Source: a virus
Length of the DNA: 33,639 nucleotides
Direction: 5' to 3' (one strand)
IMG/VR virus record: IMGVR_UViG_3300005613_000239
Span: 1-33,639 of that record
Part shown: positions 1-33,639 of the stretch, one piece after another
Layout of the letters: every line of letters starts with the position of its first letter
Position numbering within the stretch: the first letter of the stretch is position 1
Notes under the pieces: generated by a model
What the model saw: the letters and a program-made list of their open reading frames with translations, nothing else
Database searches by the model: none
What the model was told of the DNA's origin: nothing
Program-made: the position numbers and the translations under genes

Positions 1-123
1 GAACTTGAAGATTCTGTACTTGTTGAACTTGAAGAACTATATTGGTTTGAAGAAGAGCTTTCGCTACTTTCACTTGTACTGCTACTTGTTGAAGATGAAG
101 AACTATAAGCTATAGAACTAGAA
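1..123. repeat. Terminal direct repeat, copy 1 (circular closure)
   Basis: These 123 bases are identical to the last 123 bases of the window (33517-33639). A serine-rich reading frame runs through both copies in the same phase, and joining the ends gives one uninterrupted gene. The simplest reading is an assembly overlap of a circular or circularly permuted molecule of 33,516 bp. A true short terminal redundancy is less likely because the repeat lies inside a gene. Confidence 0.95.
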
Positions 124-1343
124 CTTAAAGAGGTACTACTACTTGAACTATACAAATTGGAACTAGAAGAACTTAAGCTACTGCTACTTGAATTACTAGA
201 GGAAGAACTATAAAGAATAGAACTGCTAGAACTTTCATCAGGAGGTGCTGCACTTTCGCTAGAACTTTCAGATGTATATTCTTCTTCATTTAAAAACATA
301 CATACCAAACGATTATTCCCATCTAAAAACGTAAAGAATGGGTTTAATTCATTATCACAAGCAAAGGAAGGAGCATCAGAAATAGTTATTTGAGCACTAC
401 TAGCCAATGCTCTTTCTAAACTCCAAGAAGATCCTCCATAAACAGCATATGTAATTGTTGAAACCCCGCCAATAGTTGCTAAATATCCAGCTTTAACAAT
501 ATTACCTTTAGCAACAATACCTCCTAATTGTGGGTTTGTTGTAGGTGCTCCATCTATTTCGGTTTCAGTATCTACCCAAGAACTTGTATCATTAAATGCA
601 TATATTACATTTTTATTTTGATCACCATATAAACCATAAACATTATTATTGCTATCAACGCTTCCACATAAATATACAGGATTTATAGTACCAACATATT
701 CTGAACTCCAACCCCCAGCACCATCATACCAATGTTTACACCTACTATTAGTTCTATCTTTACCAAATATATGGGCATAATTATCGGAATCTACTCCGAT
801 AACTTTTCCTTTATAATAAAAACCGCCTTCTACCTCTTCTATTTTTTCTGTATCCCATGAGCTTCCATTCCATTTGCTATAATAGGTATCATCATTTGTC
901 CAATCACCCCAACAAACATGCTCATTTCCATCGGTATCAATTGCAACGGAAGGATAATAACCATCTTGTACTCCTTGTGAAGTGTGAATTGCACCTTGAT
1001 CATCCCAATCGGTTCCATCATATCTTGCATAACGAACCAAATCATTTGCTTCATCTCTGTAAACAATTGTCGGATAACCATTATTTTCATTAACAGCAAT
1101 AGAAGTGTTTTGATTGGCAGTAATAGTTGTAGAAGAATCAACTGTAGTGGCATTATCCCAAGTATAGCCCCCATCTATAGATTTAGAATAGTATAAATCT
1201 CCGGTACCTTCGTTATACCAAGAAACGTGCATAGAATTATCACGTTGATTAATGGCTAAACAATCACGAGTAAGTGCCGATGCACCACCATTAGCAATGA
1301 TGCTTACCTGCCACCTTCCCCCACTACTACTTGAACTTGACAT
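1..1343 (-). CDS. BNR/Asp-box propeller poly-serine fibre protein, N-terminal part (gene continues across the window ends)
   Basis: This is the first part of an 811-residue protein that starts at ATG 1343, runs off position 1 and continues at 33516 down to 32424. The total length, 2,436 bp, is an exact multiple of three. Residues 9 to about 350 look like a beta-propeller of the sialidase/BNR type, with an Asp box SIDGGYTW at residues 55-62 and repeated W-D/Y-Y strands. After about residue 355 come serine runs broken by Tyr, Leu-Tyr or Gln-Tyr. The start overlaps the stop of the methyltransferase gene by one base (TAATG), so translation is probably coupled. I infer a tail-fibre or adhesin role; the acid residues of a true sialidase active site were not identified, so enzyme activity is not claimed. 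Confidence 0.8.
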   Translation of the reverse strand, partial: MSSSSSSGGRWQVSIIANGGASALTRDCLAINQRDNSMHVSWYNEGTGDLYYSKSIDGGYTWDNATTVDSSTTITANQNTSIAVNENNGYPTIVYRDEANDLVRYARYDGTDWDDQGAIHTSQGVQDGYYPSVAIDTDGNEHVCWGDWTNDDTYYSKWNGSSWDTEKIEEVEGGFYYKGKVIGVDSDNYAHIFGKDRTNSRCKHWYDGAGGWSSEYVGTINPVYLCGSVDSNNNVYGLYGDQNKNVIYAFNDTSSWVDTETEIDGAPTTNPQLGGIVAKGNIVKAGYLATIGGVSTITYAVYGGSSWSLERALASSAQITISDAPSFACDNELNPFFTFLDGNNRLVCMFLNEEEYTSESSSESAAPPDESSSSSILYSSSSSNSSSSSLSSSSSNLYSSSSSTSLSSSSIAYSSSSSTSSSTSESSESSSSNQYSSSSSTSTESSS

Positions 1344-2038
1344 TATTTATTCCTTTTTCCTATAAAAGTAATTGCCCACTGTTCCAACCATCCACCCATA
1401 GAATCAATAGGAACTGTATCTTTGCCTTTTCCAGGATGCCCAACTCCATTTAATCTTCTATTTGGAATACAGTAGGTTGCACATAAAGTTTCCATTTTTT
1501 CTGTTCTTTCAAATAAATAACTTAATCCTGTATGGGTATATCTATAACAATCTACTGGACAAGGATGATATCTCCATGAAAATAAAGTTGTATGTATATT
1601 CAAACCACCTTTTTTTGTTATACGAACACATTCTTCTGAGGCTTTCCAAGGTTCTTTTATATGTTCGAAAACACTATTGCTATAAACAATATCATATGTT
1701 TCATCTGGTATTTCATAACAATTACAAACATCTGCAACTATCATCTTACCATTCTTTATTTTCTTATCTTTAAAATGTTCATCGTTTTCTAAGAAATCAC
1801 ATTGATATCCTTTAATCTCTTTACAATGCCTACCTGCCCCGATATTTAAATATGTAAGATTTTTTCCATGTTCTTTTTTATAAATGTTCAATGCTTTTTT
1901 GACCAATATATCATCTTGACACAATATAATATCAGATGCAAAAGGTTTAATAGAAAACTGATTTCTATATTCGTTCAGTTTTTCTTCACTACCATCAAAC
2001 ATTTCTTGTAGTATGAAATTCTTATTTAATCTACTCAT
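1343..2038 (-). CDS. Class I SAM-dependent methyltransferase
   Basis: The 231-residue protein has a Rossmann-type methyltransferase core. LNIGAG at residues 64-69 is motif I for S-adenosylmethionine, VADV at 101-104 ends the next strand, and YDIVYSNSVFEH at 115-126 is the post-II strand typical of the Methyltransf_11 group. The segment CPVDCYRYT near residue 160 resembles the D-x-Y-R-Y-T signature of sugar- or LPS-associated methyltransferases. The gene overlaps the upstream sulfotransferase-like gene by four bases (ATGA) and the downstream fibre gene by one, so all three form one translationally coupled unit. The substrate is unknown; the fibre context suggests modification of virion proteins or host surface glycans (inference). 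Confidence 0.85.
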   Translation of the reverse strand: MSRLNKNFILQEMFDGSEEKLNEYRNQFSIKPFASDIILCQDDILVKKALNIYKKEHGKNLTYLNIGAGRHCKEIKGYQCDFLENDEHFKDKKIKNGKMIVADVCNCYEIPDETYDIVYSNSVFEHIKEPWKASEECVRITKKGGLNIHTTLFSWRYHPCPVDCYRYTHTGLSYLFERTEKMETLCATYCIPNRRLNGVGHPGKGKDTVPIDSMGGWLEQWAITFIGKRNK

Positions 2039-2301
2039 ACTACTTCTCCTACCTTTTCCTCATATCCACTTAAATACATTTCGAAAAGAACCGGATAGTT
2101 TTTCTTAATATAATCATCTATTTCAATTCTTTCCTTCTTATTTAAAAATTCACTTGGTTTCTTTTTAGTACTATTCAACCAACTATCTTTATATATACAG
2201 TATCTTAACCATGTATTTGCAGAACGTGGATAAGAAAGTAAAATATTTTGGATGGGTAGTTTTCTCCATCTCTTTACTTTTCTGTATGGAATCTTAGACA
2301 T
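2035..2301 (-). CDS. Sulfotransferase-like N-terminal fragment with PAPS-binding loop
   Basis: The 88-residue protein carries NILLSYPRSANTWLRY at residues 19-34. This matches the 5'-phosphosulfate-binding loop of sulfotransferases (consensus Y-P-K/R-S-G-x-T-W), with Ala in place of the usual Gly. Full sulfotransferases are about 250-300 residues and need a later 3'-phosphate-binding segment that is absent here, so this is either a truncated remnant or a minimal partner protein. A strong AAGGAGG site lies 8 bases before the ATG, and the stop overlaps the methyltransferase start, so the gene still appears to be expressed. No continuation was found in the other frames. Confidence 0.5.
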   Translation of the reverse strand: MSKIPYRKVKRWRKLPIQNILLSYPRSANTWLRYCIYKDSWLNSTKKKPSEFLNKKERIEIDDYIKKNYPVLFEMYLSGYEEKVGEVV

Positions 2302-2324
2302 TTGCAGTCCTCCTTAAATTAAAA

Positions 2325-3281
2325 TTAACTAGAAGAAGAACTGTAATTATCCGAAGAACTTGAGCTACTAGAAGAACTGTATTCCTCCGAAGAACTTGAG
2401 GAGGAAGAAGAACTGTAATAGGTTGGACCACCTGTACTCCAAGCACCATCACCCCATACAGTCATATATTGATTTGCAGTTACTTGTTTTATCATAACTG
2501 AATTTGGAATACCATAATTTCTTATACTATATTTTGTTCCTGCATCTCCTGAATCATCTATGGAATTTCCTTCTTGAGTTTGTAAAGTGATTATATATGT
2601 ACTATCTTCTCTTAAAAATCCGAAGTGCCTACCTATCGTATCACTTGAATCAACTAATGGAAGTATGAATCTAAAATCACAAGCTATTGAAGAAGGTATG
2701 ATAAACGTTTTTGCACTATCTTCAATTGCTACAGTATAAGGAGATTGATCACAACTTGTAATAACTACAGTTTCATTACTTATAGACCAAGGAACTAAAC
2801 CTGTGTTATTAATTAAACTCCAGTTAACCGTTTCTGTAAGCACTAATGTTGTATAAGTACCAGAAATAGGAGAAGCTTTAACATGTAACATACCTGGGCC
2901 AAACGTATAAATATAACTAGTAACAGGATCGGTAAATCTTATTTCACAAAAGTAATCACCAATTTGTCCAATATCAGCTTCGGTACAAGGAAAATCTACG
3001 TAATTCTTATCTTCTTCATCCGTTTGGGAACTAGAAGAGCTATCTGCATTTGCTATTACACCGTCAATAATCACTAAAGATGTTGAATATTCTTCGTTTT
3101 CACCATAACCCAAAACACATGTCCAATTACTAGGTGGTACCCATTGTTGTCCACCTTCGTATAGGTAAGCTCTTATGGTTGGATTGGAAGCACAAGCGAC
3201 CGTTATATGGAACATGCGATTCGGGTGCTGCATATCCAATTTTGAGGAAAATTTAGGTGTGGTATTATCTATTGTACTCAT
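2325..3281 (-). CDS. Poly-serine-tailed baseplate/fibre protein
   Basis: Of 318 residues, about 20-135 form a beta-rich domain (FHITVACASNP... GDYFCEIRF... GMLHVKAS) whose layout resembles the BppU-type N-terminal domain of phage baseplate proteins. A second beta domain follows to about residue 285. The last 33 residues are three serine blocks separated by EEY and DNY, ending YSSSSS-stop like two other proteins here. A short SSSSS run also interrupts the first domain near residue 80. It is probably a tail-tip structural protein. It has its own promoter-like block upstream (3338-3366). Confidence 0.6.
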   Translation of the reverse strand: MSTIDNTTPKFSSKLDMQHPNRMFHITVACASNPTIRAYLYEGGQQWVPPSNWTCVLGYGENEEYSTSLVIIDGVIANADSSSSSQTDEEDKNYVDFPCTEADIGQIGDYFCEIRFTDPVTSYIYTFGPGMLHVKASPISGTYTTLVLTETVNWSLINNTGLVPWSISNETVVITSCDQSPYTVAIEDSAKTFIIPSSIACDFRFILPLVDSSDTIGRHFGFLREDSTYIITLQTQEGNSIDDSGDAGTKYSIRNYGIPNSVMIKQVTANQYMTVWGDGAWSTGGPTYYSSSSSSSSSEEYSSSSSSSSSDNYSSSSS

Positions 3282-11488: not shown

Positions 11489-11501
11489 AATAGATAATAG
11501 A

Positions 11502-11540
11502 TAAAATTGAGTGGGGCCAAATTGCCCCACTCAATTTTAT
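11502..11540 (-). terminator. Intrinsic terminator after the coat gene
   Basis: A perfect 15-bp stem (AAAATTGAGTGGGGC with GCCCCACTCAATTTT) closes a six-base loop, starting just after the coat stop codon at 11548 and followed by a short T stretch on the minus strand. It should end or reduce transcription after the coat gene, keeping coat and scaffold more abundant than connector and tail genes. The near-symmetric flanks would also allow weak action on the other strand. Confidence 0.85.
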
Positions 11541-22593: not shown

Positions 22594-22713
22594 TCAATCC
22601 CCATGTTCAATAGAAACAACTACTGTGCCTTTTAGTTCCTCCAAATCTTCTATATCGTTTACAATTTGAATAGACCGTTCAATAGTTCGTTTAGATTTAC
22701 CGTTCCTTAAAAT
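22594..22713 (-). pseudogene. 3' fragment of a gene interrupted by the TnpB module
   Basis: The open stretch encodes ...KSKRTIERSIQIVNDIED... and ends V-V-V-S-I-E-H-G-D-stop at 22594. It has no start codon and begins after a stop inside the end of the tnpB gene. If the module between the two 8-bp TAGATTTA repeats (22692-22699 and 24046-24053) is removed, this frame joins in phase to the open fragment at 24046-24091, giving G-Y-F-K-E-N-G-L-L-T-V-D-D-K-S-K-R-T-I-E-R. That makes an ancestral gene split by the insertion likely. Function unknown. Confidence 0.5.
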
Positions 22714-23822
22714 CTACAAAAATCTAAATGTTCAGTAGATACTAAAGGTTTGTAACAGGAACCGTATTTTCCTGTGACGAATCGCTCCAAAATATTTCTA
22801 GCAGCATTTATGTCTGCATTGTCAGAGTGACCACATTCCTGACATAGAAATGTTTCTCCCAAACGATTCTTCCTATCAGTGTGACCGCATTTGGAACACT
22901 TCTGACTGGTATAGTGAGGAGATACAGACCTGAACGAAACACGGTTTAGCTCACACTGTTGTTCTAATCTCGTCAACCAATAAGAATAATTCCAACTACC
23001 AATAGAACGCCTAATATTTTTACTCAATAGACGTTTGAGTTTCGAGTTCTTACCCAAATTCTTTAATTTCTCAACCACAATCATGTCTGCCTCATTGATT
23101 ACTTGTTTTGCTACTTCATCTATTCTTTGTCTTAAAGCTCTTCTTGCTTTTGTTTGCCCTTTTGAACCATGCTTGCATCTCTTAATCCTTTCAATACCTG
23201 CTTTGATATCTTGCCCCAACTGTTTCCCTTTGGATGTAGTCGCTAATGCATTAATTCCTGTATCTATTCCAACAAGAGATTTGACTTCTTTCTTTTCTCC
23301 TGTCTCTATTTCAAAACAGAACTGAACATATTTATCAGTGATGATGTATGAGTTTAATCTCTTTCCTCTTTCTTGAAGTTGATTAAAGTGCTTGTGGTAT
23401 CTTACAGGAATATCTATTCTGATTTTGTTACCTATAGAAGCAAGATGTAACCACCCATCGAACTCTTTAGTTTTTCTTAATGGTTGAAGTTCGGCAATGG
23501 TGCATGAAACATTCATTCTCTTACCTTTATGTGATGGCATCTTCATTTTATCAGGATTATCTTTCCATCTTTTCTTTGTAGCCGATACCATATCTAAAGC
23601 TTCTCTAGCAGCTACTTTTCTTAAACGAGCGGATAACCAAGTTTCAGGAATATCAACTATAGGTTTTAGGAGTTTTACCTTAGATACTTCACCATTTTTC
23701 CAAAAGTAGTCAATAAAAATATTAACAACACGACCATATTCGGAAAGAACTATCTGTAGTTCTTCCTTCTTTTGATTTGTAGCAAATTTGAGGCTACATT
23801 TAGTTGATCTTATTATCTTCAT
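22707..23822 (-). CDS. tnpB: TnpB-like RNA-guided nuclease
   Basis: The 371-residue protein has the full TnpB/Cas12-type nuclease core: RuvC-I LVGIDTGINALATT with D187, RuvC-II MIVVEKL with E251, a zinc finger C309-C312/C327-C330 (QKCSKCGH...FLCQECGH) and RuvC-III NADINAARNI with D337. The N-terminal half is a wedge-like beta domain. TnpB enzymes cut DNA guided by an RNA encoded at the 3' end of the gene. The ATG overlaps the upstream RHH gene by 23 bases. All catalytic residues are present, so it is probably active; it could equally be domesticated by the phage, as no tnpA is near. Confidence 0.88.
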   Translation of the reverse strand: MKIIRSTKCSLKFATNQKKEELQIVLSEYGRVVNIFIDYFWKNGEVSKVKLLKPIVDIPETWLSARLRKVAAREALDMVSATKKRWKDNPDKMKMPSHKGKRMNVSCTIAELQPLRKTKEFDGWLHLASIGNKIRIDIPVRYHKHFNQLQERGKRLNSYIITDKYVQFCFEIETGEKKEVKSLVGIDTGINALATTSKGKQLGQDIKAGIERIKRCKHGSKGQTKARRALRQRIDEVAKQVINEADMIVVEKLKNLGKNSKLKRLLSKNIRRSIGSWNYSYWLTRLEQQCELNRVSFRSVSPHYTSQKCSKCGHTDRKNRLGETFLCQECGHSDNADINAARNILERFVTGKYGSCYKPLVSTEHLDFCRF

Positions 23823-23964
23823 TTTCTAATTCTTGATATTTTTTTTCCAAAGCATTCCTTATCACGGCAGAGATATTAAGTTGATATCTTTCTCTCATGA
23901 CTTTTATTTTTTTAACCAATTTATTATCTGCCATGTAAATCATTCTGTTATGTTTTTTATTCAT
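23800..23964 (-). CDS. Ribbon-helix-helix DNA-binding protein
   Basis: The 54-residue protein has a beta strand RMIYMADN (residues 7-14) and two helices, LVKKIKVMRERYQ and NISAVIRNALEKKYQEL. The S-x-x-I-R-x-A-L pattern is typical of Arc/CopG-type ribbon-helix-helix repressors. It overlaps the start of tnpB by 23 bases, so the two are translated together, and it could repress the pair. The short length is normal for the fold. A weak ribosome binding site precedes the ATG. Confidence 0.75.
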   Translation of the reverse strand: MNKKHNRMIYMADNKLVKKIKVMRERYQLNISAVIRNALEKKYQELENEDNKIN

Positions 23965-24034
23965 GTCTATTCATGTATTCTATAATTATTTACCTATTTC
24001 CTTCTTTTTTCTTAAAAATTTTCAATAATTTTTA

Positions 24035-24095: not shown

Positions 24096-24128
24096 AAAAG
24101 CTAAACGACAACTTGTCGTTTAGCTTTT
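24096..24128. terminator. Strong hairpin terminator after the replication gene
   Basis: A 16-bp perfect inverted repeat, AAAAGCTAAACGACAA with TTGTCGTTTAGCTTTT, is separated by one base; in RNA a small loop would form. T runs follow on both strands, so it can work both ways. On the minus strand it lies about 60 bases after the replication gene stop and insulates that gene from the TnpB module. Confidence 0.8.
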
Positions 24129-24185: not shown

Positions 24186-24587
24186 CTAGTATTTCAATAA
24201 TTCAATTCGTCTAGTATTTAACTTCAGACATCCTTTCCTGCCTTTAGATTTAGTTCTTCGTATATATGCTGTTTCGTTTTTTATCTCCTTTGTAATTTTA
24301 CGTCCATCTTTTAATCTTCTTTCTTCATATGCTTTTCTACCTTCAAGTTCATCAAGATAATTTTGTATACTCTTCTTCATGCAATTACCCATTTTTTTAC
24401 ATAGATCCTCATTACGAACTTTTACCCATCCATCTTCTATCTTACCAAAGAAAGTTGCCATATAAATTAGACCATATAAACGAACTGCACCATGAGAAAG
24501 ATTTTTATCAGTTAAAATATCCCATGGTATTTTAGCAAATGGTTTCTGCTTTTTTGGTTTAATGTAACTTCCTGAATAATCTTTCAT
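24186..24587 (-). CDS. Winged-helix replication initiator-like protein
   Basis: In this 133-residue protein, residues 20-95 have the layout of the winged-helix domain of plasmid and phage replication initiators: I-P-W-D-I-L-T-D-K-N-L-S-H-G-A-V-R-L-Y-G-L, then W-V-K-V-R-N-E-D-L-C-K-K-M-G, then an S-I-Q-N-Y-L-D-E-L recognition helix. The C-terminal part is basic. AGGAGG lies just before the ATG. The gene is preceded by a structured attenuator-like leader and lies beside an iteron-bearing region, which supports a replication role. It lacks a helicase-loader or primase domain. Confidence 0.65.
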   Translation of the reverse strand: MKDYSGSYIKPKKQKPFAKIPWDILTDKNLSHGAVRLYGLIYMATFFGKIEDGWVKVRNEDLCKKMGNCMKKSIQNYLDELEGRKAYEERRLKDGRKITKEIKNETAYIRRTKSKGRKGCLKLNTRRIELLKY

Positions 24588-24622
24588 CCTATCCTCCTAT
24601 AAAAAAAGCAACTGACCATGCA

Positions 24623-24631
24623 TGATATAAT
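24623..24631 (+). promoter_or_regulatory. Putative antisense promoter (extended -10)
   Basis: TGATATAAT on the plus strand is a perfect extended -10 (TGnTATAAT). Transcription would start near 24638 and run through the complement of the whole leader, producing an antisense RNA to the replication mRNA. No -35 element is evident, as is common with extended -10 promoters. Confidence 0.5.
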
Positions 24632-24637
24632 CCGGGA

Positions 24638-24730
24638 AGAAGATAACATGAACAAGCTAGAAGAGCTAGTCAGTTGCTTAAAATGTTTATATATTCTGTT
24701 CATGTATTTATTCCTCTTCCCGTTATCATA
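24638..24730 (+). ncRNA. Candidate antisense RNA to the replication leader
   Basis: This is the predicted product of the extended -10 promoter at 24623. It would contain GAAGAAGATAACATGAACA near the 5' end and its partner TGTTCATG...TCTTCCC near the 3' end, so it would fold into a stem-loop and pair with the mRNA leader. The 3' end is uncertain because no good T run follows. A 52-codon plus-strand frame with a hydrophobic stretch overlaps it, but has no ribosome binding site at its first ATG. Confidence 0.35.
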
Positions 24731-24735
24731 CATAT

Positions 24736-24741
24736 ATTATA
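24736..24741 (-). promoter_or_regulatory. -10 of the replication gene promoter
   Basis: TATAAT (24741-24736) in the context TTGTATAATATATG lies about 150 bases before the replication gene ATG and just before the attenuator fold. The -35 match is poor. The same context occurs before the HNH gene. Confidence 0.5.
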
Positions 24742-24774
24742 CAAGAAAATTCCAAAAGTATCCTTCTTTCTTTT

Positions 24775-24919
24775 AAAATATTTCAATATTTATAGGCGGT
24801 TTATCAGATTTCTGTGGAACCGCTCCTCCACCTTCTTTCTGCTTTTCTAAGAATCAAGACGAAGATCTTCGTCTTGATTCTGAAATGGCATTTGCTTCTT
24901 TGGAAAATATTTCAATATT
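24775..24919. repeat. 16-bp direct repeat flanking a palindrome
   Basis: AAAATATTTCAATATT occurs at 24775-24790 and again at 24904-24919. The two copies bracket the perfect palindrome at 24850-24881. They are candidate binding or unwinding sites in the origin region. Confidence 0.75.
24850..24881. repeat. Perfect 32-bp palindrome
   Basis: Two 16-base arms meet with no spacer, centred on GAAGATCTTC, with outer arms AGAATCAAGAC and GTCTTGATTCT. It lacks a T run on either side, so it is more likely a protein-binding or cruciform site of the origin than a terminator. Confidence 0.8.
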
Positions 24920-24951
24920 ACAAATAAGCACTATTTTATTACAATTTTTCT

Positions 24952-24998
24952 AGCGTAAAAATAGCACCACTATGTCAGCGTAAAAATAGCACCACTAT
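24952..24998. repeat. Two 22-bp iterons, candidate replication origin
   Basis: Two identical 22-bp units, each starting AGCGTAAAAATAGC and ending ACCACTAT, lie at 24952-24973 and 24977-24998 with a 3-bp spacer, giving a 25-bp period. Tandem units of about 20-22 bp beside a winged-helix replication protein gene are typical initiator-binding iterons. An AT-rich stretch follows directly. Confidence 0.75.
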
Positions 24999-25386: not shown

Positions 25387-25507
25387 TCTAAATTTGCTTT
25401 AATATTTATAAATCCTTTAGTATCAATAACTTATGAATATTTGTATATACATCATATTTTATAAATCCTTTAGTATCAATAACTTGTCAAATCTAAATTT
25501 ACTTTAA
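25387..25507. repeat. 28-bp direct repeat nested inside a second repeat
   Basis: An exact 28-bp unit, starting TTTATAAATCC and ending ATCAATAACTT, occurs at 25405-25432 and 25458-25485. The pair is bracketed by TCTAAATTTGCTTTAA (25387-25402) and TCTAAATTTACTTTAA (25492-25507). The nested order suggests operator or partition-type sites between the origin and the plus-strand module. Confidence 0.75.
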
Positions 25508-27192: not shown

Positions 27193-30100
27193 TTAACTTG
27201 AACTTGAACTATAAATTCCAGAACTGCTTGAACTGCTTGAAGAACTATATTGAATTGAAGAACTGCTAGAAGTATTACCTACACTTTCACTACTACTAGA
27301 TGAAACCTGTTCTACAACACCATATCCTACATCACACCAAGTTTCTACTCCTTTTCCAATCCAATATGCTACAAAATCTCTTCCTCCGGTTGCAGCATCT
27401 CCTGTATTTAATTGGGATAATGTAGTTGTTGGTCTAATAGCAGTTGTAATATCAAAACATTCAGCGGCAGAAGCAAGAGGAGGTGCCCATGTTCCGGTAT
27501 CGTGATTGTGTTCTCTATGGCAAATTTCTTCATCCTCTTTCCAACATACAAATAATCCGCCTTCAAATGAAACTATTCCTACACCACCACGTTCTTTTGT
27601 TTCTGAACTTAAAATTGATTTAGCACTCCATACACTTGCTGGACCACTTTCTCTTTCTTGAAATGTTATATTACTATTTTCATCGGCATATGCAACTGTA
27701 ACATTAACGGCTCCATCTACAGTTTCTTGCTCTAGATCAAATATTGCCTTTGTTGGATAAAGATCATTACAAATAACTTGTTTCGTTTCCCAAGTTCCAG
27801 CATCGTGGTATCTTGAATAAAAATTTGCTGTTGATTCACCTGTCTTTTTTTGTTTCCATACCATTATCATATCACGTTTTTCGGCCGCACCATCACCGGT
27901 TTGACGAATAGATACGCCTAAAATTTCATCATTTGTTGGATCTATCAAATCTTCATCTTCACTCCATGTAGTTATATCTAAAGGATCCGAAAGATAACTT
28001 TTTATGGTTTTACTTCCTGTTCCCCCACCACTACCTGAACTTGAAGAACTTTCGTCGGCATCTTTATTAAAAATAGCTACAACCCACATCTTAGGAGAAG
28101 CTTGATTATCGGATGCCATGTTTACATATTTTAAGCTTCCACCTAAAGCACTAGCATCCATAACCGTTGTAGTATTTTGCCAGGAGAAAGTATTTGTGTT
28201 ATTATCCGAATCGGCAACAATTACATCATTACCATTTAGATAGCAAATTGTAAATGTCCATCCTTTCGTCGGCATTCTAACGGTAAAATCGCATTCATCC
28301 CATTGTTGTGCTTTATTTATAGAAATTCTTGCATTGGTATTTTCTGTAAATCCAGCTTCTAAACTAGTTGCATACCATCCTTCTATCCTATTTTCTGAAG
28401 GATTATAAATGAAATACCAGAATAATCCTTCAACACTTTCGTAACCAGTTTTTCTTTGCCAATTACCTGCAAGCATACGTTCACAAGCAGCAACATAAGA
28501 ACTAGAAGAACTAGAAGAACTAGAACTATATGCAATACTACTACTTGAAGAACTAGAAGAACTATAAATTCCAGAACTGCTTGAACTGCTTGAACTGCTT
28601 GAAGAACTGTAAAGAACAGAACTAGAACTGGAAGAACTAGAACTATATGCAATACTACTACTTGAAGAACTAGAAGAGGAACTTGAAGAACTATACAAAT
28701 TACTACTTGAAGAACTTGAAGAACTATACAAATTACTACTGCTACTACTTGAAGATGATGATTGTTCTTCACATGTCATTAACGCATAAGTTACTCCTAA
28801 TCCTGCATAATAGATATTAACAGTTGCATAAGATTTTCCTGTTGCATCTTCTAATGCTACTTCGTGCCATAAAGAATCATCTGAAATAACTGCTCCACCG
28901 TATGCAAGATAATTAGTTTCAGCTTGTGCATCTTCTAAACTCTTATACAAATAGATCCAGAAACGATTATAACCGCTAACAGGATAGGAAACAACTTCGT
29001 GTCGTAACCATAAATTACATTGGTCAGTATCATTTTTATATGTTGTCACTAGAGTATCTAATCCTTTAACTCTATCGCAAATATCAGCATGTGTTCCTGA
29101 GTTATAAGAACAATTATAAATGTCACAAATACATTCTTCATTACTAGAACTCGAAGAACTAGAACTTGTATTTCCTACGGATTCAGATGATGTACTACTT
29201 GAAGAAACTATGCAAGATCCTTCTATCATCGTTCCTGTATCTGTTCCGGTCGAATAAGTACCTTGAGGATAAGTATTAGCAACTAACTGATAAGCAATAG
29301 GTGTAGAAGCACATGATGAACTATTTATAACCCATCTCATTGATCCTAAATGCATATAGAAGTATAAGTATCTATCACTTTCTCCATTATAATAAACAGG
29401 AAGCTCATTACAATATGAGGCTGTTTTATCATAATCTCCATTTATGAATACTTCTGTAAATCCTGTAACGCAATAAATGTCGTTCAATTCTCCGCTACTC
29501 AAACTAGATGAACTTGAAGAACTGCTACTAGATGAACTTGAACTATAAAGAACAGAACTAGAACTGCTTGAACTATACTGAATAGAACTGCTTGAAGAAC
29601 TAGAGCTATATTGTTCGGAACTAGATGAAGTACTTGAAGAGCTAGAAGAACTTGATTTACTACTAGAACTTGAAGAACTATATGCAATACTAGAACTTGA
29701 AGAAGAACTGCTGCTTGAACTGCTACTATAAAGTTCAGAACTAGATGAAGAATAAAGTTCGGAACTAGAACTGCTAACTCCATTTGTACTACTACTTGAA
29801 GAACTAGATGAACTTGTTTGATCTGAAGAACTGCTTGAACTTTGAGATTTTCCAAATGAGCTAGATGAACTTGGACATAAATCTTCACATGTTATATCTT
29901 CAAATGTTCCACCTCCACCTGATTGTGCAGTCCAACCATTACATTGATTACCATCTATCCAATTATAAGGTTGAGTTACGAAACCACTTCTTGGATGGAA
30001 CATATATTGAGAATAATCATCATCCCAATAAACGCATGGTTCATCGGTTGTATTGTAATTTGATTCCCATCTTTCGTTAGAAGAATTGAATATCATCATC

Positions 30101-32421
30101 GTTCCATTATAATCTAACAATGTGCAGAAAGGCCCGTATGATGCTTGGCCTTGATTTATTGCAAAAGGATGAACAGTAAGATAAACTTCACAACATCCTG
30201 CTCCTCTACTTGAAGAACTGCTAGAACTTTCATTACCAATACTTTCAGAACTTGTACTACTAGAAGAACTGTAAATTCCAGAACTTGAAGATGAAGTAGA
30301 AACATCGCAATAATCACAGCAAGGTGTTGGGAATGCTCCATAATTCCAACCAATACCACCGCAACCATCTACTCCGTTTGTAAGATAACTGAATTTCAAG
30401 AACCATTGAGTACCTTGATGATCATTAAATGTCCATGAATTAAATGGAGCACCCGAGTAATACATTTTAGGATTATTATTTCCATCAGATTCCCATTGAT
30501 TAGTATTTACGTTATACAACATCTTCCATTTTGTTCCAGCATTATTCCATTCATAACAGTAGCATGCTTGAGTTGTAGAAACTGAATTATAATCAACAAA
30601 TGCAGGTGAAACTGTAACATCACAACATCCCCAACCTGAAGATGAACTTGTGGAACTTGAAGTATTTTCTACACTTTCAGAACTTGACGAAGATGTAGAT
30701 GAACTTGAACTATATTGTTGAGAAGAACTAGAAGAAGAAGAAGAACTGCTATACAAATTAGAACTTGAACTAGAAGAACTATAAAGATTAGAACTGCTAC
30801 TTGAAGAACTATAAAGAACCGAACTGCTAGAACTTGAAGAGCTGCTACTACTTGAACTATATTGTATTGAAGAAGAACTAGAACTGTAAATTAAACTACT
30901 AGAACTTGAAGAACTAGAAGAACTATAAAGATTAGAACTGCTACTAGATGAACTTGAACTATACTGTTGTGAAGAACTAGAAGAACTATACAAATTACTA
31001 CTTGAAGAACTAGATGAACTATACAAATTACTACTTGAAGAACTGCTAGAAGAACTTTCACTTCTTCCACCCGATGTACTACTTGAAGAACTTGAAGAAG
31101 AGAATTCAGTAGGTTTCAATCTATGATCCAACCAACTATATCTTCTTTCTCTTCCATCAATTAATGTATATACAACCGCCCCATCAGGAACACCAACATC
31201 TTCTCTTGTTTTAATACGAGAATAAGCAACATATAAATTTTCTATATATGAACTTGAAGAAGAACTAGATGAACTTAAACTACTAGAACTTGAAGAACTA
31301 TACTGAATAGAAGAAGATGATGATGTTGATTTGCCCAAAGATGATGTGCTAGAACTAGAACTATATTGTTGAGAAGAACTAGATGTACTACTACTGCTTG
31401 AAGAACTAGAACTATATTGTTGAGAAGAACTAGAAGTAGAAGAAGAAGAACTAGAAGAACTCGTAGATGAACTTGAACTATACAAATTAGAACTTGAACT
31501 TGAAGAAGAACTATAAAGATTAGAACTAGAAGATTCGCTTGATTGACTATATTGATTCGAAGAAGAACTTGAAGAACTATAAAGATTACTGCTACTACTA
31601 CTTGAACTGCTACTAGATGAACTTGAACTATACAAATTTGAACTGCTACTAGACGAACTTGAACTATACTGTTTACTAGAACTTGAAGAACTATATTGTC
31701 CAGAAGAAGAACTAGAAGAACTGTAACCCCCAGAACTTGAACTGCTACTGCTACTAGATGAACTTGATGCAATAGTATTATCGTTTATATCTAATGTTAA
31801 ATCAGAAATAGTCCATATAATTGCTCCACCCGAAGAAGAAGAACTTGAAGAACTATACAATTCAGAACTCGTACTACTTGAACTAGTACTGTACACCAAA
31901 CTACTTGAAGAACTAGAAGAAGAAGTATTACCTATTGATTCAGAACTTGTACTACTTGAAGAACTAGATTTAGCACCTATACTTTCAGAACTTGTCGAAG
32001 AACTTTGAGAGGAACTAGAACTAGAACTTTCGGTAGAGGAACTAGAACTAGAACTTTCAGCACTTGCACATTCTCCTAGTGTTAATGTTCCATTTGTCCA
32101 ATTACCTGCATCTGGATTTTCAGGAAGATCACCAATATCATAATCATAATCAGATTTAGTATTGATAACAGCGGCATCACAAGCTGAGTTTGTCAAGCAC
32201 CAATAAGCTAACCAGTTAAAAGGAGGTCCTGGATTTTGTGTTATTCTACATGAAAGATAATAATAATTACCTGATACCGGGCCTAAGAAAGTACTTCTAT
32301 ATCTTCCACGATATATAGTACCCCATCCACCGGTATAGGTACATGTGCCTATTAATTCATAGGTACCATCCCAATCCTTTGAGGTATATCCTTTAAAACA
32401 ATAATTACTTTCGTATGCCAT
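27193..32421 (-). CDS. Giant modular poly-serine fibre protein
   Basis: The 1,742-residue protein has globular domains at about residues 1-118, 394-440, 594-708, 737-851, 979-1070, 1095-1222, 1310-1454 and 1470-1705, joined by serine runs punctuated by NLY, QQY, IQY, VLY, IAY and E-S-(I/V)-G-N-T. The 594-708 and 737-851 domains are duplicates (G-x-G-C-C start, then N-x-W-E-S). The 1470-1705 domain resembles a BNR-type propeller. It ends YSSSSS-stop. It starts two bases after the origin-spanning fibre gene, so the two form one fibre cluster. I infer a long flexible multi-domain tail or side fibre. Confidence 0.75.
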   Translation of the reverse strand: MAYESNYCFKGYTSKDWDGTYELIGTCTYTGGWGTIYRGRYRSTFLGPVSGNYYYLSCRITQNPGPPFNWLAYWCLTNSACDAAVINTKSDYDYDIGDLPENPDAGNWTNGTLTLGECASAESSSSSSSTESSSSSSSQSSSTSSESIGAKSSSSSSTSSESIGNTSSSSSSSSLVYSTSSSSTSSELYSSSSSSSSGGAIIWTISDLTLDINDNTIASSSSSSSSSSSSGGYSSSSSSSGQYSSSSSSKQYSSSSSSSSSNLYSSSSSSSSSSSSSSNLYSSSSSSSNQYSQSSESSSSNLYSSSSSSSSNLYSSSSSTSSSSSSSSTSSSSQQYSSSSSSSSSTSSSSQQYSSSSSTSSLGKSTSSSSSIQYSSSSSSSLSSSSSSSSSYIENLYVAYSRIKTREDVGVPDGAVVYTLIDGRERRYSWLDHRLKPTEFSSSSSSSSTSGGRSESSSSSSSSSNLYSSSSSSSSNLYSSSSSSQQYSSSSSSSSSNLYSSSSSSSSSSLIYSSSSSSIQYSSSSSSSSSSSSSVLYSSSSSSSNLYSSSSSSSNLYSSSSSSSSSSQQYSSSSSTSSSSSESVENTSSSTSSSSGWGCCDVTVSPAFVDYNSVSTTQACYCYEWNNAGTKWKMLYNVNTNQWESDGNNNPKMYYSGAPFNSWTFNDHQGTQWFLKFSYLTNGVDGCGGIGWNYGAFPTPCCDYCDVSTSSSSSGIYSSSSSTSSESIGNESSSSSSSRGAGCCEVYLTVHPFAINQGQASYGPFCTLLDYNGTMMIFNSSNERWESNYNTTDEPCVYWDDDYSQYMFHPRSGFVTQPYNWIDGNQCNGWTAQSGGGGTFEDITCEDLCPSSSSSFGKSQSSSSSSDQTSSSSSSSSSTNGVSSSSSELYSSSSSELYSSSSSSSSSSSSSIAYSSSSSSSKSSSSSSSSTSSSSEQYSSSSSSSSIQYSSSSSSSVLYSSSSSSSSSSSSSSLSSGELNDIYCVTGFTEVFINGDYDKTASYCNELPVYYNGESDRYLYFYMHLGSMRWVINSSSCASTPIAYQLVANTYPQGTYSTGTDTGTMIEGSCIVSSSSTSSESVGNTSSSSSSSSNEECICDIYNCSYNSGTHADICDRVKGLDTLVTTYKNDTDQCNLWLRHEVVSYPVSGYNRFWIYLYKSLEDAQAETNYLAYGGAVISDDSLWHEVALEDATGKSYATVNIYYAGLGVTYALMTCEEQSSSSSSSSSNLYSSSSSSSSNLYSSSSSSSSSSSSSIAYSSSSSSSSSVLYSSSSSSSSSSSSGIYSSSSSSSSSIAYSSSSSSSSSSYVAACERMLAGNWQRKTGYESVEGLFWYFIYNPSENRIEGWYATSLEAGFTENTNARISINKAQQWDECDFTVRMPTKGWTFTICYLNGNDVIVADSDNNTNTFSWQNTTTVMDASALGGSLKYVNMASDNQASPKMWVVAIFNKDADESSSSSGSGGGTGSKTIKSYLSDPLDITTWSEDEDLIDPTNDEILGVSIRQTGDGAAEKRDMIMVWKQKKTGESTANFYSRYHDAGTWETKQVICNDLYPTKAIFDLEQETVDGAVNVTVAYADENSNITFQERESGPASVWSAKSILSSETKERGGVGIVSFEGGLFVCWKEDEEICHREHNHDTGTWAPPLASAAECFDITTAIRPTTTLSQLNTGDAATGGRDFVAYWIGKGVETWCDVGYGVVEQVSSSSSESVGNTSSSSSIQYSSSSSSSSSGIYSSSSS

Positions 32422-32423
32422 AA

Positions 32424-33639
32424 TTAATTAATTCCTGTTACTTTAATTTGAAAATATCTATTATCTGTATTAAATGGTTCTGTATATTCGAACCAAGAAG
32501 GAATAATAGCATCATAATCAAAAGGTGTTGTAGAGCACCTAAAATAAATTGTTCCTTCCGTTCCACTTCCTGTTCCGCAAACCGTATCATAAGAAATTAT
32601 TACTCTCTTATCTCTTAACCCACCCGAATCCTTAACATCGGATACAAAAGCATCTGCATACTTTAATTCTAATTCACCATATGCACCCGAATTTCTTGCC
32701 TCTTCTACGGAATTCTCATAGTGCCACACCTTCCAAGAAACGCCTGTTGTTTCTGTAGGATTTTCACATCCCCATGTCCAACCATCATCTAATTGAGAAC
32801 TTGAAGAAGAACTATATTGATCAGAACTAGAACTGCTTGAACTAGAACTATACTGATTAGAACTTGAAGAAGAACTATATTGATCAGAAGAAGAACTTGA
32901 AGAACTTGAAGAACTTGAAGAGGAACTATATTGATCAGAAGAAGAACTTGAAGAACTAGAACTATACTGATTACTAGAACTTGAAGAAGAACTTTTGGAA
33001 CTTGAAGAAGAACTATATTGATCAGAAGAAGAACTTGAAGAACTTGAACTATACTGATTAGAACTTGAAGAAGAACTATATTGATCAGAAGAAGAACTTG
33101 AAGAACTTTTGGAACTAGAACTAGAACTATATTGATCCGAAGAAGAACTGCTTGAACTAGAACTATACTGATTACTAGAACTTGAAGAAGAACTTTTGGA
33201 ACTTGAAGAAGAACTATATTGATCAGAAGAAGAACTTGAAGAACTTGAACTATACTGATTACTAGAACTTGAAGAAGAACTTTTGGAACTAGAACTAGAA
33301 CTATATTGATTACTAGAACTTGAGCTACTACTTGAACTATAAAGATTGCTAGAACTTGAAGAAGAACTGCTACTATATTGTTCCGAAGAACTTGATGTAC
33401 TACTGCTACTGCTAGACGAACTATACAAATTACTACTTGAAGAAGAACTTGAACTATACAAATTACTAGAACTAGAGCTACTACTACTACTTGAACTGCT
33501 ATACAAATTAGAACTTGAACTTGAAGATTCTGTACTTGTTGAACTTGAAGAACTATATTGGTTTGAAGAAGAGCTTTCGCTACTTTCACTTGTACTGCTA
33601 CTTGTTGAAGATGAAGAACTATAAGCTATAGAACTAGAA
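32424..33639 (-). CDS. BNR poly-serine fibre protein, C-terminal part (gene continues at 1343-1)
   Basis: This is the remainder of the 811-residue protein whose ATG is at 1343; bases 33517-33639 repeat 1-123 and are counted once. About residues 355-688 are serine runs with D-Q-Y, N-Q-Y, N-L-Y and S-K-S spacers, repeated in blocks of roughly 100-130 bases at the DNA level. Residues 689-811 form a C-terminal globular domain (QLDDGWTWGC...YFQIKVTGIN) with three Cys. An ATG at 33506 inside the serine run should not be taken as the start. The stop is two bases before the next fibre gene. Confidence 0.8.
   Translation of the reverse strand, partial: SSSIAYSSSSSTSSSTSESSESSSSNQYSSSSSTSTESSSSSSNLYSSSSSSSSSSSSNLYSSSSSSSSNLYSSSSSSSSTSSSSEQYSSSSSSSSSNLYSSSSSSSSSNQYSSSSSSKSSSSSSSNQYSSSSSSSSSDQYSSSSSSKSSSSSSSNQYSSSSSSSSSDQYSSSSSSKSSSSSSSDQYSSSSSSNQYSSSSSSSSSDQYSSSSSSKSSSSSSSNQYSSSSSSSSSDQYSSSSSSSSSSSSSSDQYSSSSSSNQYSSSSSSSSSDQYSSSSSSQLDDGWTWGCENPTETTGVSWKVWHYENSVEEARNSGAYGELELKYADAFVSDVKDSGGLRDKRVIISYDTVCGTGSGTEGTIYFRCSTTPFDYDAIIPSWFEYTEPFNTDNRYFQIKVTGIN
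33517..33639. repeat. Terminal direct repeat, copy 2 (circular closure)
   Basis: This copy is identical to positions 1-123. It should be removed when the genome is circularised. Confidence 0.95.

Follow-up and report, generated by a model that had tools for sequence, protein, structure and literature searches.

A predicted transcription attenuator of two interleaved, mutually exclusive hairpins upstream of a putative helix-turn-helix gene in an uncultured tailed phage

We analysed an IMG/VR virus record of 33,639 bases with a GC content of 32.8% (the window, in what follows, is this whole stretch). The record carries a direct terminal repeat of 123 bp, and thus probably represents a complete, circularly assembled tailed-phage genome. 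Head genes were recognised for the large and small terminase and, by similarity to related records, for the capsid and portal proteins. None of the phage proteins scanned was recognised as a DNA polymerase, helicase, integrase or partition protein. Proteins of the tail region (27193-33506 and 1-3281) consist largely of serine runs interrupted by short motifs such as NLY, DQY and QQY, and comparable serine-rich proteins occur in three related records (L030, L033 and L035). Midway through the head operon, a perfect 17-bp inverted repeat with a 6-nt loop (11501-11540) separates the major capsid gene from the one that follows and forms a very stable hairpin.

Additionally, the record encodes a TnpB-family RNA-guided nuclease (22707-23964 region) whose gene overlaps a small ribbon-helix-helix gene (23800-23964). 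Just 3' of the TnpB gene lies GTTTCTATTGAACATGGGGATTGAAAC (22617-22591, minus strand), a CRISPR-repeat-like sequence that could be the 3' end of the TnpB guide RNA; a search of the window found no second copy of it and no other target for the bases that follow it. As a pointer to the host, the TnpB protein returned only distant matches, with bacteria and archaea mixed. Sigma-70 promoters and the rules of intrinsic termination are assumed throughout.

The locus of interest is a 133-aa gene on the minus strand together with the leader that precedes it (Table 1). Profile matches of the protein are weak, comprising PF13730 HTH_36 at E 0.006, which falls below the Pfam cut-off, and, with E 4e-4, phrog_19047 'transcriptional regulator'. 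Searches of viral_contigs, genome_contigs, phages and plasmids brought up no homologue, nor did 22 related phage records, mostly fragments, that were reached through the capsid and portal proteins. These related records share head genes, with full-length or near-full-length capsid matches about 38-66% identical and a few partial ones lower, and they share none of the early-region genes beyond one marginal match. A PDB sequence search with the protein gave nothing meaningful, and its single-sequence structure prediction (pLDDT 58) is not usable. Searches with the DNA patterns of the terminator arms and direct repeats found no match, and no similarity emerged when the leader was compared with phages or the gene and its upstream region with plasmids. 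A relative with this locus did not turn up in any of these searches. Next to the gene lies a 1.1-kb non-coding region with direct repeats and palindromes, and no further candidate for a replication function was recognised; calling it a replication gene is therefore a reasonable guess, but 'regulator' is equally possible.

Table 1. Features of the leader and of the 133-aa gene, listed along the minus strand.
Feature	Positions	Strand	Basis and remarks
Predicted -10 box TATAAT of the sense promoter	24736-24741	-	Exact TATAAT; no good -35, no TGN extension; predicted role
5' arm (A) of the enclosing antiterminator hairpin	24697-24734	-	Minimum-energy fold; helices 24724-24734, 24712-24722, 24697-24705
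39-codon leader ORF (MNRIYKHFKQLTSSSSLFMLSSSRIISCMVSCFFYRRIG)	24584-24703	-	ATG at 24703, GAGG upstream; stop overlaps next start as ATGA
First arm (T) of the predicted terminator stem	24669-24679	-	Sequence; AAGCAACUGAC (24679-24669), also given as AAGCAACTGAC
3' arm (A') of the enclosing hairpin	24617-24654	-	Fold; helices 24646-24654, 24633-24643, 24617-24627
Extended -10-like TGATATAAT, possible antisense start ~24638	24623-24631	+	Sequence; chance frequency in the window
Second arm (T') of the predicted terminator stem	24606-24616	-	Sequence; GUCAGUUGCUU (24616-24606), also given as GTCAGTTGCTT
T run of the predicted terminator, seven T, two inside the stem	24601-24607	-	Sequence
Ribosome-binding site AGGAGG of the downstream gene	24594-24599	-	Sequence
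133-aa protein, putative helix-turn-helix; initiator or regulator	24186-24587	-	Weak profile matches
Perfect inverted repeat of 16 bp, a likely terminator 3' of the gene on either strand	24096-24128		Sequence

The GC skew changes sign within the adjoining 1.1 kb. A 22-bp direct repeat, AGCGTAAAAATAGCACCACTAT, is present there in two iteron-like copies 25 bp apart (24952-24998), while 25405-25507 hold a pair of 33-bp repeats flanked by 16-bp ones. Positions 24781-24930 belong, on both strands, to the most structured sequence of the record (z about -6 to -7) and contain a hairpin at 24795-24824 and a perfect 32-bp palindrome at 24850-24881. This stretch lacks a T run and is thus not an obvious terminator; possibly it is an origin or operator element.

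On the minus strand, arms T and T' of the leader form 11 perfect, GC-containing pairs around a 52-nt loop, with Us next, and the stem abuts both the T run and the ribosome-binding site of the rep-like gene. The initial annotation had described an 11-bp stem plus seven T. Stem and T run are both present, but two of the seven T are already paired in the stem, and the count is therefore 11 bp with five U or 9 bp with seven U. When both strands of the record were scanned for perfect stems of at least 8 bp, with loops of 3-60 and ending at a run of at least five T, only three such features were found in the whole 33.6 kb, among them the leader terminator and the 24096-24128 hairpin, which flank the 133-aa gene. 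Dinucleotide shuffles of the leader (n=2,000) yielded no stem of this kind longer than 8 bp, leaving the real 11 bp unmatched. The stem is a plausible transcription terminator, and we infer that it would terminate transcription in vivo; with 52 nt, its loop is rather long for intrinsic termination to be efficient, which counts against attenuation at this site.

The minimum-energy fold of the leader is a different structure, in which A pairs with A' through three helices of 11 (24724-24734/24617-24627), 11 (24712-24722/24633-24643) and nine pairs (24697-24705/24646-24654). Arm T lies unpaired within the loop of this hairpin, near a small inner hairpin of 4 bp (24664-24667/24655-24658), and the computed fold agrees with the earlier description of a three-part hairpin enclosing the first half of the terminator stem. 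Arm A also contains the SD-like GAGG and the ATG (24703) of the leader ORF. The fold of the 140-nt leader (z = -4.1) beats 200 of 200 shuffles and ranks 17th among 960 windows of the genome. Sixteen of these windows score still better, and the presence of equally or more strongly structured windows elsewhere in this AT-rich record is a point against an attenuator.

Read along the minus strand from 24735 to 24601, the segments follow in the order A, T, A', T'. For a transcript starting near 24730, the A-A' (read-through) fold has an energy of -32.8 kcal/mol against -23.1 for the T-T' fold, a difference of about 10 kcal/mol, and the modelled terminator probability of the unconstrained transcript is 0.00. 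In shuffles that kept T, T' and the T run and randomised the remainder (n=4,000), an alternative fold beat the terminator in 4.9% of cases, and did so by the observed margin in one. The two folds, their exclusiveness, their energy order and the rarity of that order in shuffles were all computed directly. The interleaved helices had originally been read as either competing or forming a pseudoknot, and both the interleaving and the competition were borne out, the folds being mutually exclusive. A pseudoknot of both stems was rejected: helix 1 ends at 24617 and T' starts at the adjacent base, 24616, so that no linker separates them. Without a linker T' cannot cross the ~31-bp stem to reach T, and on this geometry competition is therefore far likelier than a pseudoknot.

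Folding of successive prefixes shows A-A' complete before T' is transcribed. Forcing either A or A' to be unpaired raises the modelled terminator probability from 0.00 to 0.97, and the state of the leader would thus depend on A being free when A' emerges, with A as the probable sensing arm. The outcome also depends on the start site, for which we infer a position near 24729 from the exact TATAAT. With a start at 24720 the folds are nearly equal, and with a start at 24716 the terminator wins; a true start further downstream would narrow the margin, and mapping of the start site therefore matters.

Because only one of the folds can form at a time and the enclosing one is favoured by about 10 kcal/mol, a margin equalled in one of 4,000 shuffles, an attenuator with read-through as its default is likely. 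We thus propose, with moderate confidence, that the leader acts in cis as a transcription attenuator of the 133-aa gene and consists of two interleaved, exclusive hairpins (A-T-A'-T'). As polymerase moves leftward, A would pair with A' once A' emerges, some 30-40 nt before T' is made. The A-A' pairing would trap T in its loop and place T' at the foot of a long stem, where T and T' could not meet; with T so trapped, T-T' would not form and transcription would therefore continue into the gene. An occupant of A at that moment, such as a ribosome on the SD-ATG, a bound protein or a short antisense contact, would free T and A', and T-T' would then form beside the T run and halt transcription. The predicted attenuator is placed directly 5' of a strong AGGAGG-ATG and the gene then has its own downstream hairpin, an arrangement like that of a regulated monocistronic unit. 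The switch stands as a well-supported prediction of RNA structure in a single uncultured genome.

One candidate for the occupant of A is a translating ribosome. The leader ORF starts inside A and reads on through T, A' and T' to a TGA that overlaps the ATG of the next gene, and control by a leader peptide would have the ribosome on these 39 codons set the fold and reinitiate at ATGA, as in R1 tap-repA (with or without an antisense RNA) or in amino-acid attenuators. The SD-like GAGG and ATG lie within A, where A-A' pairing would hide them, and an ORF of at least 30 codons in frame with an SD arose in only about 0.1% of shuffles, a rough count, as SDs were miscounted for ATGs very close to the 5' end of the leader. 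A modelled ribosome footprint promotes the terminator when placed at codons 1 and 2 (0.97 and 0.59) and prevents it when placed at codons 4-16. Codons 13-16 are four Ser codons in a phage that makes Ser-rich proteins, a run that may merely reflect the pyrimidine-rich arms of the RNA. Codon usage speaks against translation: that of the leader ORF is below all 114 same-length windows of early-type genes and no better than that of shuffles. As this usage is not coding-like, translation of the ORF is uncertain. We therefore treat the leader peptide as a lead, short of a finding, and regard control by it as unlikely.

A second candidate is an antisense RNA that binds the nascent leader, blocks A-A', promotes termination and so controls copy number as in pT181 and pIP501. 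The initial annotation had an extended -10 at 24623-24631 driving the opposite strand. The motif TGATATAAT is indeed present, but a promoter role gains nothing from its frequency: about 4.8 copies of TGNTATAAT are expected in the window and four are found, no more than by chance. An RNA from this site would start inside the leader and run back across its 5' end like a countertranscript, and antisense pairing confined to A gives a modelled terminator probability of 0.97. The same RNA would complement T as well as A; pairing along the whole overlap would therefore hide the first terminator arm and prevent termination, and masking 24638-24730 indeed gives a terminator probability of 0.00. Short early contacts may act ahead of full pairing. 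A 1994 study on pIP501 reportedly found that partial, fast contacts suffice, a precedent that we count in favour of antisense control.

Other properties of the putative antisense RNA offer little to this proposal. It is predicted to be not notably structured (z -0.64), and no convincing terminator was found 3' of it. Rfam gave no gathering-level match in the window and no plasmid countertranscript family at E up to 5. A search of the leader for a direct antiterminator found no segment pairing with T or T' beyond 5 bp with one G-C pair. The earlier claim that antisense RNA tips the choice to termination in the manner of pT181 or pIP501 thus fared poorly, given the chance-level motif, the terminator probability of 0.00 for the full duplex and the missing direct antiterminator, and we judge antisense control of this kind to be distinctly unlikely. 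As a separate observation, the putative antisense RNA would begin with a 42-codon ORF (24648-24776; MNKLEELVSCLKCLYILFMYLFLFPLSYIYYTRKFQKYPSFF) whose product would, with its hydrophobic stretch, recall the small toxins of type I systems; codon usage lends no support to this ORF.

The record contains five copies of the nonamer ACATGAAYA, and four of them lie in the leader arms (24646-24654 and 24697-24705) and directly before the ribbon-helix-helix gene (23966-23976); it could be a shared operator or mere shared start-codon context. Very doubtful, in our view, is that the inverted repeats act as DNA, as operator or origin palindromes beside a plasmid-like origin with the RNA folds incidental: the 22-bp direct repeats, 33-bp repeats and perfect 32-bp palindrome of the adjoining 1.1 kb, the rank of 24781-24920 near the top of the record's windows for structure, and the presence of ACATGAAYA in both leader arms and twice 5' of the ribbon-helix-helix gene all favour it, but it leaves unexplained both the terminator stem and T run directly 5' of the ribosome-binding site and the energy competition.

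If the predicted attenuator works as a switch, it would add a leader attenuator to the means by which phages may set the dose of an early DNA-binding protein. Should the gene be a replication initiator, the locus would connect copy control in phages with that in plasmids in a way open to testing. The fullest version of this idea, in which a phage replicon gene lies under an attenuator of topological enclosure, tipped by antisense RNA or a leader ribosome, and so under plasmid-like dosage control, is an improbable one that we offer as speculation. As to a possible phage-plasmid state, a repeat-rich region and a rep-like gene are present, whereas in the proteins scanned no partition gene or integrase was recognised, but no DNA polymerase or helicase either.

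Extrachromosomal mycobacteriophage prophages, which rely on RepA and RNA-based systems, are a precedent for tailed phages that control replication as plasmids do, through a protein or an RNA (PMC7157519); those prophages carry parABS, whereas no partition gene was recognised in the window. Like copA-tap-repA of plasmid R1 (compare PMC5717011), the locus has a short ORF that precedes and touches the main gene and whose start region may be covered by an antisense RNA. R1, however, regulates translation and not termination, whereas the phage leader has a predicted terminator, and translation of the phage leader ORF is unsupported by codon usage. The likeness to repR/RNAIII of pIP501 (compare PMC4981023) consists in a predicted sense promoter that converges with a putative antisense one, and in predicted attenuation in the leader. 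It differs in its shorter leader (about 140 nt against 329 nt in pIP501), in having neither a CopR-like gene upstream nor an RNAIII-like structured antisense RNA, and in a gene product unrelated to RepR by any search made.

As in pT181 repC, a leader with two exclusive folds precedes a small gene, here a putative replicon gene, with a predicted terminator just before the gene and a possible antisense promoter inside the leader. The pT181 antiterminator base-pairs with the 5' portion of its terminator stem and is itself sequestered by the antisense RNA (PMC4878617). The first terminator arm of the phage leader, in contrast, is predicted to be merely enclosed in a loop and not paired by an antiterminator as in pT181 (PMC4878617), and the putative phage antisense RNA would cover that arm too. 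Thus, if it works, the enclosing architecture would be a new element compared with textbook plasmid attenuators.
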